A program made the position numbers and the translations under genes. 64,000 bases of DNA from Catellatospora sichuanensis. Its GTDB lineage: Bacteria; Actinomycetota; Actinomycetes; Mycobacteriales; Micromonosporaceae. The notes under the pieces are model-generated. The model saw only the letters and a list, made by a program, of their open reading frames with translations, searched no databases and was not told where the DNA came from. Of this stretch, positions 5,240-34,943 are shown one piece after another; position 1 is the stretch's first letter; every line of letters begins with the position of its first letter. The DNA is taken from positions 1 to 64,000 of the forward strand of contig NZ_VIQO01000013.1 of assembly GCF_007483665.1 (NCBI RefSeq). The letters are read 5' to 3'.

Positions 5240-5299
5240 CGGCGAAATGTGGTCTGAACGATCTGCCGTATGCGCATCGGCTGGGCTGCGCGGCTTTCC

Positions 5300-6019
5300 T
5301 CAGACGTGGCTCGGTTCGCCATCAGGCTCAGGTTCTGCACCGACGACCGACCGGAGGCGTTGCCGTTCGGCCTCGGTGCCGATGGCCGTGCGGTGTTCGG
5401 GGTGGTCGATGTAATGCCTGATGGCGGCAGCCAGGAACGGGTAGCCCACCGCGAAGCCTCGGGGGATCGTTTCCGTTCGCTCTCGGCCGTTTGGCCCGAC
5501 CAGAGTCAACCTCACGCCCCGGCCCACGCGAGGACCGGCCTCGACGAGTTCGGCGTCGGTGATGGCGTCCCAGGACGCGCTGGGGAAACCGAGCCCGCGC
5601 CCGTCCAGTCCGGCGGGCGTGAGTATGAGCCGAGGCCGAAGCGCGGGAATGAGCGAGATGCCGAGACTCCACGAGGCGGCGAGGGCGAGGGGGATGACTA
5701 GATCGGCCGTGCCCGAACCGGACGGTATTGCGGCGAGGTGCGGCGCAGCCAGATATCCGCCGACGATGAACATCCCGCCGTTCGGCCACCGCGGCGTGGT
5801 GGTGAACGAGCCTGTCATCACCTGGAATCCAGTCGACGGCCACGGCCAGCGCCATACGGCCACGCTGTAGACCACCAGGACTGCCAGCGGCACCAGCAGG
5901 TAGCCGGCGAGCCCGCCGGACTGCCACAGCGGCTCGGTCGCCAAACCCAGAGCAGTGCCCAGAGGCCAGCAGAGCGCTGCCGTGGCAGCGGGATGCCAGA
6001 GCCTGGCACGACGGAACAT
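5300..6019 (-). CDS. Hypothetical membrane protein with C-terminal soluble domain
   Basis: Not recognised. From ATG 6019 it encodes 239 residues with four hydrophobic segments: AALCWPLGTALGL, YLLVPLAVLVVYSVAVW, GMFIVGGYLAAPHLAAI and LVIPLALAASWSLGISLIPAL. A C-terminal part follows with alternating strands (RLILTPAGLDGRG, VRLTLVGPNG) resembling the PH-like domain of many small actinobacterial membrane proteins. A GTG at 6052 would add 11 residues. It is the last gene before the left end of the integrated element. Confidence 0.5.
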   Translation of the reverse strand: MFRRARLWHPAATAALCWPLGTALGLATEPLWQSGGLAGYLLVPLAVLVVYSVAVWRWPWPSTGFQVMTGSFTTTPRWPNGGMFIVGGYLAAPHLAAIPSGSGTADLVIPLALAASWSLGISLIPALRPRLILTPAGLDGRGLGFPSASWDAITDAELVEAGPRVGRGVRLTLVGPNGRERTETIPRGFAVGYPFLAAAIRHYIDHPEHRTAIGTEAERQRLRSVVGAEPEPDGEPSHV

Positions 6020-6081
6020 GGCGCAAACATAACCGCCGCCGTCTCGCGACACGGCGCCGGTCAGCCATGACCCAATGACCT

Positions 6082-6125
6082 GGTGCCCCCGGCAGGAATC
6101 GAACCTGCGACCTGCGGTTTAGGAA
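6082..6125 (-). repeat. Left attachment-site copy (tRNA-Arg 3' half)
   Basis: These 44 bases are identical to 8894-8937. They hold the T-arm, variable region and part of the anticodon arm of tRNA-Arg(CCT) on the minus strand. The 5' half of a tRNA is absent: sequence diverges right after the anticodon region, so this copy is not a functional gene. Confidence 0.85.
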
Positions 6126-6196
6126 GGGGCTGGCCCTGAGCGACCTAGCCTGGCGGCTACCTGCGGAAACGTGCGTCACAGAGACTCGCAAGTCCT

Positions 6197-6220
6197 AGAT
6201 CATTCCGTGCATGTTCCGTG
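6197..6220 (+). repeat. Arm-type repeat, left end of element
   Basis: AGATCATTCCGTGCAT followed by GTTCCGTG contains the heptamer TTCCGTG twice, 11 bases apart. The same 24-bp block recurs at 8768-8791 with one mismatch, in the same orientation. Paired short direct repeats beside an attachment core resemble arm-type binding sites of tyrosine integrases. Its location next to the core repeat at both ends supports this. Confidence 0.55.
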
Positions 6221-6245
6221 GGCCTCATGAATCGCGAATCGTCGC

Positions 6246-6626
6246 CTACCTGGCGGCGCCAATCATCACGGCCAGCACTTCGCGAGGGTCGCGCTGTGCT
6301 AGGTACTGGAAGTGAATTGAGTCTGGTGCTTGTGACTGCGGATCGGTCAGCCAGGACGCTGTGCTCCACTGCTGCGCGACGACGGCATGTACCCGTTCCA
6401 CCACGACGAGCCAGGTCGCTTCCCCACCAGCTATACGCGCCAGATAGCCGGACGCCAACACATGATCCACCACGTCGCCGAACGTGGTGCCGTCCGCCAC
6501 GTCTAGGACCTGCTCGTGCGGAGCGTCGACGTCGTCCCCCATCGCGACGCTGTCGCGCGTCGACCGAATTCGCATCCAGTCATCATCGCAGCCCGCGCCG
6601 GCCGACCGCGCATACGTGCTGGACAT
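6246..6626 (-). CDS. Hypothetical protein of the integrated element
   Basis: Not recognised. It has 126 residues, no signal peptide and no membrane span, and is acidic in the middle (VAMGDDVDAPHEQVLDVADG) with a central hydrophobic block (GEATWLVVVERVHAVVAQQW). The start has a GAGGCGAG ribosome site eight bases upstream, which argues for a real gene. It is the leftmost gene of the element. Base composition is less GC-rich than in neighbouring core genes, in line with horizontal origin. Confidence 0.5.
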   Translation of the reverse strand: MSSTYARSAGAGCDDDWMRIRSTRDSVAMGDDVDAPHEQVLDVADGTTFGDVVDHVLASGYLARIAGGEATWLVVVERVHAVVAQQWSTASWLTDPQSQAPDSIHFQYLAQRDPREVLAVMIGAAR

Positions 6627-6807
6627 GTGGCTCGCCTCGGCAGGGTGCGGCCGTCAACTAGCCCAACCCTGAACCTACGGATTACTGGCGGTCAGGTCGC
6701 CGGAGGCCAGGCACGAGGTTGCCCGCGCAGGTTCGCGCGTGTGGGGTCGGCGGCGCGCAGTGACGTTGCTGTACTTCGCTGCTTACGGCAGGGTTCCGTG
6801 ATCGCTC

Positions 6808-7086
6808 CTACACACCCGTCGTCGCTTGCGCGATTCCAGCCGCAAAGGCGATGAGGCCCAGGGTGGCGACCACGATGCCGCCCGCCATATTGAACCACCA
6901 CGGCATCCAGTACCAGGAGAACACGGCAGGCAACGGGAGCGAACGGGGGAATTCCGGGTCACGGCGTTGCCGCCGGGCAATCAAGATCGCCAGAGCGCCG
7001 CTCGCGGTCACCAAAAGTCCGATCCCTAACAGGATCACTGCGCCGACCAACGGCCCGCCTCGAGCTGCTTCGCCTTCATGAACCAT
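6808..7086 (-). CDS. Small two-span membrane protein of the element
   Basis: Not recognised. It has 92 residues from ATG 7086. Two hydrophobic segments are clear: VGAVILLGIGLLVTASGALAI near the N-terminus and NMAGGIVVATLGLIAFAAGI near the C-terminus, joined by a basic loop (ARRQRRDPEFPRS). Upstream lies the tRNA-Tyr fragment on the opposite strand. An upstream in-frame extension to 7260 would cross that fragment and is not credible. Confidence 0.45.
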   Translation of the reverse strand: MVHEGEAARGGPLVGAVILLGIGLLVTASGALAILIARRQRRDPEFPRSLPLPAVFSWYWMPWWFNMAGGIVVATLGLIAFAAGIAQATTGV

Positions 7087-7100
7087 AAGCACGGAGCCCA

Positions 7101-7152
7101 CTGTAAATCCGTCGCGAAAGCTACAGAGGTTCGAATCCTCTACCCGCCACCA
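7101..7152 (+). pseudogene. tRNA-Tyr(GTA) 3' half, truncated
   Basis: Starting at the anticodon arm, CTGTAAATCCGTC contains anticodon GTA. A variable region and a perfect T-arm follow (AGAGG TTCGAAT CCTCT), then acceptor strand ACCCGCC and ACCA. The matching 5' acceptor strand, D-arm and first half of the anticodon stem are missing, so this is not a functional tRNA. It has the form of the 3' half carried by an element that integrates into tRNA-Tyr, pointing to a second or earlier integration specificity inside this relic. Confidence 0.75.
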
Positions 7153-7251
7153 GCAGCAGAAACGCGGTTCTGACCAGCAACAACGGTCGGGGCCGCGTTT
7201 CGCTTTGGGTCCGGCTGTGTCCGGCTGAGTCCAGCCATCTACGGCTGTCCT

Positions 7252-7269
7252 GGGGAACATTCGGGGAAC
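7252..7269 (+). repeat. GGGGAAC direct repeat after tRNA-Tyr fragment
   Basis: GGGGAACATTCGGGGAAC holds two copies of GGGGAAC 11 bases apart, the same spacing as the TTCCGTG pairs at 6197 and 8768. It lies about 100 bp beyond the tRNA-Tyr fragment and may be the arm site of the matching integrase. The intervening DNA also repeats TCCGGCTG. Confidence 0.45.
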
Positions 7270-7304
7270 ACGCCTGGTGTCGGCGGGTGGCTCTGCCGTG
7301 AGCT

Positions 7305-7465
7305 GATCCCCTCGGACTGGCGGGCTCTGCCTAAGCGCAGGGTGGGGTCCGGAGTGCCTGCCGAGGCTTCAAGATTTTTCTGCGAAGCGGTTAGAAAAAT
7401 CTTGGAGTGGCAGGTGCGGAGTGGCCCCGGCCTGCGCTTACCTGTGGCGACTGGCCGAGGGGATC
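7305..7465. repeat. Large nested inverted repeat (about 160 bp)
   Basis: Four sets of arms nest in order: GATCCCCTCGG (7305-7315) with CCGAGGGGATC (7455-7465), TAAGCGCAGG (7332-7341) with CCTGCGCTTA (7431-7440), CCTGCC (7357-7362) with GGCAGG (7409-7414), and CAAGATTTTTCT (7370-7381) with AGAAAAATCTTG (7393-7404). All pairs are exact. The central arms are AT-rich in a GC-rich genome. No coding frame is convincing here. Candidates are a single-strand or transfer origin of the element or a structured RNA; the sequence alone does not decide. Confidence 0.6.
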
Positions 7466-7493
7466 TTGCTGATCCCCGAGCGTCGGCCGGGGT

Positions 7494-7510
7494 TTGGGGC
7501 GGAGCCCCAA
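7494..7510. repeat. Short hairpin beside the large inverted repeat
   Basis: TTGGGGC (7494-7500) and GCCCCAA (7504-7510) pair around GGA. It stands just outside the nested inverted repeat and may belong to the same structured region. An AT-rich run follows at 7581-7607, the most AT-rich stretch noticed in the window. Apart from these repeats and the tRNA fragment, 7087-7678 shows no credible gene. Confidence 0.45.
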
Positions 7511-7678
7511 GGTCTACCGCTCTAACCGTGATGATCGCGGATGTGACGGCGGCGGGAGCTGCGGTCAGCTAGTCCGGCTAACGTGCGAAAAGAATAAAAG
7601 TAGAAAATAATGCCGATCTTCGGTAGCTGAACCTACTGACAAAACCATCGATTGGAGACGATTTTGCGGTCCCCTGAC

Positions 7679-7903
7679 ATGGGGTTTGTGTGGCTGGGTG
7701 CGTTCGAGATGTTGACCGGCGCGGTGATGTTCTTGAAGGCGCGGGCGGCGATGCGTCTGCCGGATGTTGAGTCGAGGCGCAAGTACCTGGCTTTCGCACC
7801 TCGGATCTTCAAGGACAGCCCGATGATCATGAAGGTTGTGGGTGCCGCGAGCATTCCTGTTGGTGTGTACTGCGTCATGATCGGGTTTGGATGGGTTGGC
7901 TGA
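7679..7903 (+). CDS. Small hydrophobic protein of the element
   Basis: Not recognised. From ATG 7679 it encodes 74 residues with a hydrophobic N-terminus (GFVWLGAFEMLTGAVMFL), a basic central loop (ARAAMRLPDVESRRKYLAFA) and a second hydrophobic segment (VVGAASIPVGVYCVMIGFGW). The pattern fits a two-span membrane protein. A TTG at 7652 is an alternative start; a GGAG lies 19 bases upstream of the ATG. It follows an AT-rich non-coding run. Confidence 0.4.
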   Translation: MGFVWLGAFEMLTGAVMFLKARAAMRLPDVESRRKYLAFAPRIFKDSPMIMKVVGAASIPVGVYCVMIGFGWVG

Positions 7904-8331
7904 CCGGGCTGCCAGCATGATCATTTCCTCTCGCTGAGCGGTCACCCCCGGCTTGATCGCTTCCGGCACGCCCTGACGTGCGTCGTCGCTGGCCGTGGCC
8001 GCATCGTCGGCCAGTCGATCACCAGCCGCGTTGATCAGAGCGCTGACCTGTGGCAACTCTTCGCCTTCGGCAAAGTCGATCTGTCCGATCGACTCAAGGC
8101 TTCGCTGCTGGCTGCCGGGTCGGGCGCGGGCCTGGCGCGGCCGGAGGCAGAGCGCCGAGGCCCAGTGCCCGGACCCAGCGCGGCGCTTCAGCGCCGCCTT
8201 GACCTCGTAGGGAAAGTTTCGACACATGCCGATGGGCTAGGTATGCCGGCAGGGAAGGTGCTGTGATCTCAGTGCGCTGGGAGATCGCGTGGTCGCCTTG
8301 CTGCCAGCTATGGCACGCGACCGGAGCGTTG
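7904..8331. other. No supportable gene; probable degenerate DNA
   Basis: No frame here has a start, ribosome site and composition that agree. On the minus strand an MCRNFPYEV start at 8227 opens a long frame, but it continues through the complement of the 7679-7903 gene and looks coincidental. An Ala/Asp/Glu-rich stretch at about 7915-8080 on that strand could be a gene remnant. Confidence 0.4.
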
Positions 8332-8664
8332 TCAGTGACGGGCATCCCAAGCGGCTTTTCTGGCGGCACGAACCTCTTCCGTCAGCCGCTCCAGCGTTTG
8401 TCCCGCGGGGAACGGTTGCGATGCTGCCCGCCAAGCTTCGGCGGCTAGTGTCTCTGGCCAGCGCGGAGTGTCTGGGCTGATCAGATTGCGGTACTTCTGC
8501 TGGAAGTCGTCGTCGCCATTGACGACCGCGCCGCCTTGGCCAAGTTGCGGCACCGGAAGCATGTTGAAGGTATGAACCACCTGAGTGCCGTCGTCTCCTT
8601 CGAAGATCAGCTCAACGTCGGTGTCTGACACCACCCGAAGGGCCTTGAAGCTCATGCTTTCCAT
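8332..8664 (-). CDS. Hypothetical soluble protein of the element
   Basis: Not recognised. It has 110 residues. The first half reads as beta-strands (FKALRVVSDTDVELIFEGDD, then VVHTFNMLPV), the middle is polar (GDDDFQQKYRNLISPDTPRW), and the end is helical and basic (LTEEVRAARKAAWDARH). There is no membrane span. A TAGATCATTCC sequence like the one in the left arm repeat lies just upstream of its start, between the gene and the right end of the element. Confidence 0.5.
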   Translation of the reverse strand: MESMSFKALRVVSDTDVELIFEGDDGTQVVHTFNMLPVPQLGQGGAVVNGDDDFQQKYRNLISPDTPRWPETLAAEAWRAASQPFPAGQTLERLTEEVRAARKAAWDARH

Positions 8665-8767
8665 CGCCCGACCCTAGATCATTCCCGACGGAGGTTGAAT
8701 ACCGTCGCACCTCGACGCGGTCGCGATGCGGCCGCGTTTTGCTTTGCGACCTGCGAAAACACATCCA

Positions 8768-8791
8768 AGATCATTCCGTGCATATTCCGTG
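8768..8791 (+). repeat. Arm-type repeat, right end of element
   Basis: It matches the 24-bp block at 6197-6220 with one substitution and the same orientation; TTCCGTG occurs twice at 11-bp spacing. It sits about 100 bp inside the right attachment core. A shorter third match, CCTAGATCATTCC, occurs at 8673-8685, so the right end may have been partly duplicated. Confidence 0.55.
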
Positions 8792-8893
8792 ACTGGCGAC
8801 AAACGGCGGCTCGGGGTGGCGCACGGCTGCACACGGCATCGATCGGCCGGTGTGAGTCTTCCCAGTTCGGAAGGGGAAATGCCTGATCGTGGA

Positions 8894-8937
8894 GGTGCCC
8901 CCGGCAGGAATCGAACCTGCGACCTGCGGTTTAGGAA
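8894..8937 (-). repeat. Right attachment-site copy within tRNA-Arg
   Basis: The 44-bp core is identical to 6082-6125 and covers the last 42 bases of the tRNA plus two flanking bases. Together the copies define the limits of the integrated element. Confidence 0.85.
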
Positions 8938-8968
8938 ACCGTTGCTCTATCCCCTGAGCTACGAGGGC
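8896..8968 (-). tRNA. tRNA-Arg (anticodon CCT)
   Basis: This is a complete 73-base cloverleaf on the minus strand. The acceptor stem pairs GCCCTCG with CGGGGGC (one G-U), and the discriminator is A. The D-arm carries AGCTCAGGGGATAGAGC, the anticodon loop is TTCCTAA with CCT, and the T-arm is GCAGG TTCGATT CCTGC. CCA is not encoded. It reads AGG codons. Its 3' half was used as the integration site of the element to the left, and the gene remains intact. Confidence 0.95.
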
Positions 8969-9591: not shown

Positions 9592-9640
9592 GTTACCGAC
9601 AAGTAACTAATGGCGGCAAGGGGTCGGCAGGCAAACGAAA

Positions 9641-9701
9641 GATCGCCGCCTCGTGTCGAAACCCGAAGTGAAACCCCGGGTTTCGACATGAAGCGGCGAT
9701 C
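9641..9701. terminator. Long hairpin after the ABC ATPase gene
   Basis: GATCGCCGC (9641-9649) pairs with GCGGCGATC (9693-9701), and inside it the TGTCGAAACCCG stretch pairs with CGGGTTTCGACA. It lies between two leftward genes, so it should end the ABC ATPase transcript. There is no T-tract. Confidence 0.6.
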
Positions 9702-9741
9702 TTGGGCGAGGCCACCGGGCCTCGCCGGGCGAGGTGACCCG

Positions 9742-34892: not shown

Positions 34893-34943
34893 GCGGTCAG
34901 GGGCGGAGTGCGGTCAGGGGCGGAGTGCGGTCAGGGGCGGAGT
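34893..34943. repeat. 17-bp tandem repeat at the mqnB stop
   Basis: The unit GCGGTCAGGGGCGGAGT occurs three times exactly (34893, 34910, 34927), then a partial copy enters the mqnB end at 34944. Each unit contains a minus-strand stop (TCA), so copies have been added at the end of the gene, probably by slippage, without changing the protein much. Confidence 0.8.

Follow-up and report, generated by a model that had tools for sequence, protein, structure and literature searches.

Anatomy of the island at tRNA-Arg(CCT)

The 64,000-nucleotide stretch of Catellatospora sichuanensis DNA analysed here (hereafter the window) belongs to contig C9 of an assembly of 65 contigs totalling 9.45 Mb (G000), and holds, at positions 6082 to 8968, a small island bounded by two copies of the 3′ half of a tRNA-Arg(CCT) gene. 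The intact tRNA gene (8894-8968, minus strand) closes the island on the right, its 3′ half (8894-8937) being the core of the right attachment site (attR), and an exact 44-bp copy of this half (6082-6125) forms the attL core, the two starting 2812 bp apart and enclosing ~2.8 kb. The initial annotation of this stretch had described such a repeat, and the coordinates confirm it. A chance origin is excluded because the only other exact direct repeats of at least 24 bp in the window form a single tandem array (34893-34936, 17-bp unit). The left copy lacks the tRNA 5′ half and continues into different DNA, and is thus a displaced 3′ half rather than a second, unrelated and decayed tRNA gene. The interior has a G+C content of 63% vs. 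71% for the window, and is bounded by attL and attR direct repeats, as expected of a cis-mobilizable element (CIME) or a defective actinomycete integrative and conjugative element (AICE).

Four open frames lie between the cores, namely genes B (6246-6626, minus strand, 126 aa), C (6808-7086, minus strand, 92 aa, by eye a probable membrane protein), D (7652-7903, plus strand, 83 aa) and F (8332-8664, minus strand, 110 aa), of which we consider B, C and F as cargo. The interior frames that were scanned matched nothing in Pfam, PHROGs and NCBIfam at E ≤ 0.001 (best E-value 0.042), and genes B, C and F had none in PADLOC at E ≤ 0.01, so that a defence role for these three genes was not retained. 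The earlier description of “four small genes, none recognised” thus stands as far as family matches go, and has to be amended in that the interval also contains a large amount of non-coding DNA (a tRNA-Tyr 3′ half and its arm at 7101-7272, and a structured module at 7297-7590 and 7919-8292). Homologs of gene B were found in two of 100 other relatives (40-42% identity) and on three proteobacterial plasmids (36-40%), where their neighbourhood was uninformative, and none of the 100 other relatives searched had a homolog of gene F.

No integrase, replication or transfer gene was detected among these frames at the same threshold, and contig C9 as a whole has no integrase match, in agreement with the initial annotation; an integrase hidden in the interval was therefore rejected. 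Six tyrosine-integrase matches occur in the genome (serine recombinases were not searched genome-wide), and these, like the RepSA matches, sit on contigs other than C9. The island thus holds neither the Int, Rep and Tra genes that a functional AICE carries between its att sites nor the integrase of its own that characterizes an integrative and mobilizable element.

The tRNA-Arg(CCT) site across Catellatospora

We compared this site across 11 Catellatospora genomes, i.e., G000 and 10 relatives, which include C. methionotrophica IMSNU 22006 (G001) and Catellatospora sp. KI3 (G009). Four of the 11 (G000, G004, G006 and G009) yielded a second core copy. The G009 element spans at least 20 kb and is split across contigs C41 (bearing the attL core) and C46, which belong together because the outer flank of C41 matches the sequence to the left of the G008 tRNA (93% identity over 2180 bp). 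On C46, a 509-aa open frame (L051:2354-3883) matches Phage_integrase at 27.4 bits (cut-off 27.1; 21.2 bits and below the cut-off in a DNA-level search), and is followed past its end at L051:3883 by an arm homologous to window 8715-8887, then by the tRNA. C41 bears a TraB-like gene (NCBIfam plasmid_TraB, 86.5 bits, E-value 1.5e-24, under the model's cut-off of 800), and the cargo of the element includes a TIR-like domain.

Both ends of the window island resemble those of this element. The left arm (6126-6218) is homologous to the G009 element at its left end, with 80% identity over 137 bp when the core is included (6082-6218) and ~71% over the 93-bp arm itself, and the right arm (8715-8893) aligns at 76% identity over 175 bp (window 8715-8887). 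On this right side, the homology begins 18 bp past the integrase stop codon, which indicates that the arm was retained and that the integrase gene is gone. Each arm of the window island also includes one copy of a 28-nt repeat (6193-6220 and 8764-8791, both plus strand, 93% alike), found at equivalent positions in the G009 element. Two bases of this repeat differ in concert on both sides between the two elements (CCGTGCAT..TTCCGT in the window vs. CCGTACAT..TTCCGC in G009), as expected of arm sites bound by an integrase, and we consider these repeats, on the basis of two elements, as candidate arm-type integrase-binding sites.

The integrase of G009 has matches in six of the 11 genomes (G009 included), and no relative in the window's own genome at E ≤ 1e-10. 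In G003, G004 and G007, its relatives adjoin a tRNA-Tyr gene, and segment identities of 40-58% indicate that the Arg- and Tyr-type integrases are related.

Elsewhere in the genus, the site presents itself in several states. G006 has a core copy one base short, located 742 bp left of the tRNA; a second right arm accompanies it and a degenerate core lies farther out, which supports another decayed copy at tRNA-Arg; the junction of core followed by GGGGC is common to the window, G006 and G009. G004 holds a 5.8-kb element without arms of the window type, which has its own integrase (402-aa open frame) and a large protein resembling, by eye, an NTPase with WD40 repeats. In three of the 10 relatives (G002, G007 and G008), DNA conserved among relatives lies ~0.4-0.5 kb away from the tRNA; with no second core detected, these sites look empty. 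The scanned stretches of G001, G003, G005 and G010 likewise yielded no second core (best match with 20-22 mismatches of 44), and element-like bases adjoin the tRNA there, which may be scars of former elements. Genes B, C, D and F had no match at this locus in the fetched stretches of the 10 relatives (DNA and translated searches). Overall, these empty-looking, full (G009) and decayed (G006) sites bear out the site-specific integration proposed initially, and the arrangement that would have spoken against it, i.e., the copy and the interior present in all relatives with no empty site, was not encountered.

Beyond the left core, window 5300-6052 encodes gene A (250 aa), between attL and the conserved flank ending at 5243. 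Its homologs occur in 23 of 101 genomes (own counted), elsewhere in the genus at up to 88% identity, and none matched at the tRNA-Arg site in the fetched stretches of the relatives. Gene A was rejected as a member of the element because it lies outside the att core, and may have accreted earlier at this tRNA-Arg hot spot. On the other side, an inverted repeat at 9639-9703 (27 nt, 93% complementary), between a DUF4442 gene and the next gene (an ABC transporter by eye), is probably a bidirectional terminator; its Rfam matches are all below gathering scores.

A tRNA-Tyr end and a structured module within the island

Beyond what the initial annotation had noted, the interior is a chimera with a second att core. 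A displaced tRNA-Tyr 3′ half (7101-7152, plus strand) occurs between genes C and D; it is the internal att core of a second element type, and is followed by the arm of tRNA-Tyr elements (7153-7272, plus strand), which includes, by eye, a terminator-like inverted repeat. Positions 7093-7162 are 94% identical to the intact tRNA-Tyr on contig C2 of the same genome, and the left border of the half falls at CTGTAAATCC, as it does in copies at other loci. At the intact tRNA-Tyr of G001, a Tyr core, arm, hairpin and E block (see below) follow each other in the same order as in the window, which indicates that a Tyr-type end is combined with an Arg-type shell in the island. The same order (window 7101-8292) characterizes the small tRNA-Tyr islands of G001 (4.1 kb) and G009 (2.4 kb), although those stand at an intact tRNA-Tyr and the Tyr end of the window sits in the interior of an Arg-bounded one. 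Displaced tRNA-Tyr 3′ halves with the arm also occur at L068, L069, L072, L076 and L009, with no intact tRNA-Tyr in the fetched stretch. Such halves are possible docking sites for module exchange.

The structured module, which we call HP-E, follows this arm on the plus strand. It consists of a long imperfect hairpin (HP, 7297-7480), a conserved stretch after it (HP2, 7481-7590) and a conserved block taken as non-coding (E, 7919-8292), in which a 30-nt motif (8194-8223) follows a GC hairpin. Gene D lies within extra DNA between HP2 and E, a gap of 328 bp in the window vs. 59-72 bp in five other copies (L062, L063, L065, L067 and L011). As RNA, HP and its flank (7290-7600) fold with z-scores of -6.5 (plus strand) and -4.6 (minus strand). 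Across seven copies, 14 of the 74 pairs of HP are changed on both sides vs. 4.4 in shuffles and 1-3 in slid controls, a comparison that favours structure in that the pairs were derived from the same alignment; the GC hairpin before the conserved motif of E shows compensatory changes as well. A different hairpin replaces HP in L011, L064, L067, L075 and the G009 Arg element. Copies of the module were seen in the window and at L011, L052, L062-L067, L073 and L075, and present two interchangeable hairpin designs.

The module is narrowly distributed. DNA similarity to HP was detected in six of 300 genomes of the family, all Catellatospora, and the E motif at 13 places in eight of these 300 (seven without mismatch, six with 1-3 mismatches; none for a reversed control), with 11 copies in six of the 11 Catellatospora genomes. 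Class-wide, one of 394 genomes had the motif, namely the window's own. In the two copies outside the genus, the stretch preceding E holds a strong hairpin in G019 (z-score -8.1) and none in G028 (-1.4). No exact match to the motif was found in IMG/VR, and the comparison of HP-E to plasmids returned one weak match of 44 bases (Azospirillum).

As to what the module does, HP was not retained as a known RNA, since between 5000 and 10000 only the tRNA reaches an Rfam gathering score. A role of E as the double-strand origin of RepSA replication was not supported either, because G009 has two E copies and no RepSA match, and RepSA matches occur without E in G005, G007, G008 and G010. In integrase-bearing elements, HP-E stands between regulatory genes (named by eye) and the cargo side. 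Our first guess is a terminator between convergent operons, and a bolder one a cis-acting site for mobility. It is tempting to speculate further that HP-E is a new cis-acting module of integrative elements in the Micromonosporaceae that would let helper elements replicate or move att-bounded cargo islands without an integrase, and that internal displaced att cores would be docks for module exchange, although we consider this doubtful.

Eight islands that bear E have a tRNA 3′ copy at either end, at tRNA-Arg (window and G009, the copies of the latter spanning two contigs), tRNA-Phe (G001, G003 and G004), tRNA-Thr (G001) and tRNA-Tyr (G001 and G009, the far copy of the latter having 12 mismatches of 40, yet one in the last 28). 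By PF00589 at E ≤ 0.001, the only criterion applied, six of these eight have no match in their interior, across the four tRNA types, and the G001 Phe and G009 Arg elements have one. The tRNA-Phe site offers a direct comparison: the 5.7-kb island of G003 matches the 15.7-kb element of G001 at both ends and from within a GNAT gene through E and HP, and lacks the ~7.9 kb that holds the integrase and RepSA in G001.

Several of these islands carry identifiable cargo, and at least two islands that are att-bounded and without a detected tyrosine-integrase domain bear genes matching phage-defence models. The G003 Phe island (L062:8969-10486, contig C1), with no tyrosine-integrase domain detected, has a pair of genes of a cyclic-oligonucleotide-based antiphage signalling system (CBASS), one for a cGAS/DncV-like nucleotidyltransferase (CD-NTase) and one for a Cap15-like effector; the latter gene ends in a stop codon that overlaps the edge of HP. 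The 4.1-kb Tyr island of G001 (contig C3, L064:9645-11200), likewise with no such domain detected, encodes a DUF6932 protein which, together with its neighbour, matches the PADLOC candidate PDC-M63, the second gene weakly. Three further occurrences fall outside the eight. On contig C41 of the window's own genome (L111, L011), an element at tRNA-Thr(TGT) has an integrase, RepSA and an E block 79% identical to that of the window, with tRNA and integrase on one side only and no second tRNA-Thr copy found on the searched stretch; the other two (contigs C4 and C23 of G006) showed no att pair.

Origin of the island

Taken together, these observations make it very probable that the island is a chimeric, internally deleted remnant of AICE-type elements in the 3′ end of tRNA-Arg(CCT), i.e., a defective, CIME-like AICE. 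The island would derive from an integrative and conjugative element or AICE at this same site, because both arms are homologous to an element with integrase and TraB-like genes in G009. In the scenario we propose, an element with an Arg-type tyrosine integrase would have recombined its attP core with the tRNA gene, so that it came to lie between the intact gene and the 44-bp copy, a step supported by the anatomy of the locus and by the relatives. DNA exchange with a tRNA-Tyr-type element, whose integrase is related, may then have brought in the Tyr core, its arm and HP-E; the order of these parts is what the window displays, and the exchange would account for it. Finally, the integrase, replication and transfer genes, which are absent today, would have been lost by deletion, with both Arg att arms and the cargo end kept. 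The result would now be a fixed cargo island, in which an incoming cognate integrase could still recombine the two cores, or which a new element landing at attR could carry along in cis.

The initial annotation had left open whether the island was a deletion remnant or a passenger mobilised in trans. Deletion is the better supported of the two, because the arms are common to a full-length element, no relative of that element's integrase was found in the own genome, and a parallel deletion is seen at tRNA-Phe, where the missing integrase and RepSA segment makes deletion a likely route at tRNA-Arg too. We kept trans passage as a rival, in the form of a selected minimal passenger or satellite-like island made of att ends and a cis-acting HP-E, excised and transferred by integrase, replication and transfer proteins that co-resident elements supply. 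The retention of both arms and cores, the structural constraint on HP and the lack of a PF00589 match in six of eight E-bearing islands at tRNA-Arg, Phe, Thr and Tyr are in line with it. However, the own genome offers no match to an Arg-type integrase, the islands use different att sites and could not all be served by one helper, HP-E occurs in integrase-bearing elements as well and is thus no mark of small islands, and decay without selection predicts the same picture, so that such a passenger seems unlikely. A remnant of a prophage or phage satellite is far less probable still: attP records of the actinophages VWB and RP3 do match the same tRNA end and core, but the best 20 of 523 matching records all align to the core or tRNA part of the query, no PHROGs match was obtained at E ≤ 0.001 in the 6 frames scanned, and the arms are like those of an element that bears a TraB-like gene. 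Least probable of all, to the point of being almost negligible, is a segmental duplication of the tRNA end; any duplication yields a repeat, but this one comes with paired arm repeats at element-like positions, with sites looking empty in relatives, and with the same core-GGGGC junction in a full-length element.

Several observations weigh against a defective AICE nonetheless. The immediate full-length ancestor did not turn up in any strain; what G009 has in common with the island is its ends and, at a weak 77%, portions of the Tyr arm and of E. Calling the G009 element an AICE goes beyond its gene content in that the element is split over two contigs and no candidate for a replication gene emerged, a 525-aa frame next to the integrase matching nothing in Pfam or NCBIfam. 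The two arm-repeat copies detected in G006 have four mismatches each and show no concerted change, and the inner 742-bp copy has no right arm repeat. Genes B, C, D and F keep open frames, so that “decayed” fits the mobility genes only, and arrival as a ready-made small island would give the same picture as deletion in place.

A defective AICE of this type has close parallels. In PMC9513070, on AICE decay in Streptomyces, such elements (decayed AICEs, or DAICEs) leave direct repeats, cargo and truncated integrases at sites that are empty or full in relatives; accretion at tRNA-Arg is reported there, and later accretion and cis mobilisation of decayed AICEs are suggested. The window island is similar in its two direct repeats, its remaining cargo and the empty-looking and full sites of its relatives, and differs in having no truncated integrase detected and an internal Tyr att core. 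The definition of a CIME given in PMC5704250, an element keeping attL and attR after losing its integration and transfer genes, applies as well, although no integrase-bearing neighbour was found in tandem at the window site; PMC8369830 gives a Streptomyces example (TR1). PMC3218068 describes AICE remnants and tandem AICEs in a tRNA-Arg gene, and tRNA remnants that can act as integration sites. Closest at hand, the G009 element shares the core, the two arms and the arm repeats, and has an E-like block with a type 2 hairpin upstream; unlike the window island, it is 20 kb or longer and carries an integrase, a TraB-like gene and TIR-like cargo, and genes B, C, D and F were not found there.

The island is thus well resolved and ordinary in kind, such remnants being already in print. 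What the window offers is a clean case of AICE-type decay into att-bounded cargo islands, with two element types combined in one remnant. Within 11 genomes, a single tRNA-Arg site presents empty-looking, full, decayed and tandem states, and a reduction like it can be seen at tRNA-Phe. Should HP-E turn out to act as a signal for replication, transfer or termination, the persistence of small islands that lack mobility genes of their own might become easier to understand.

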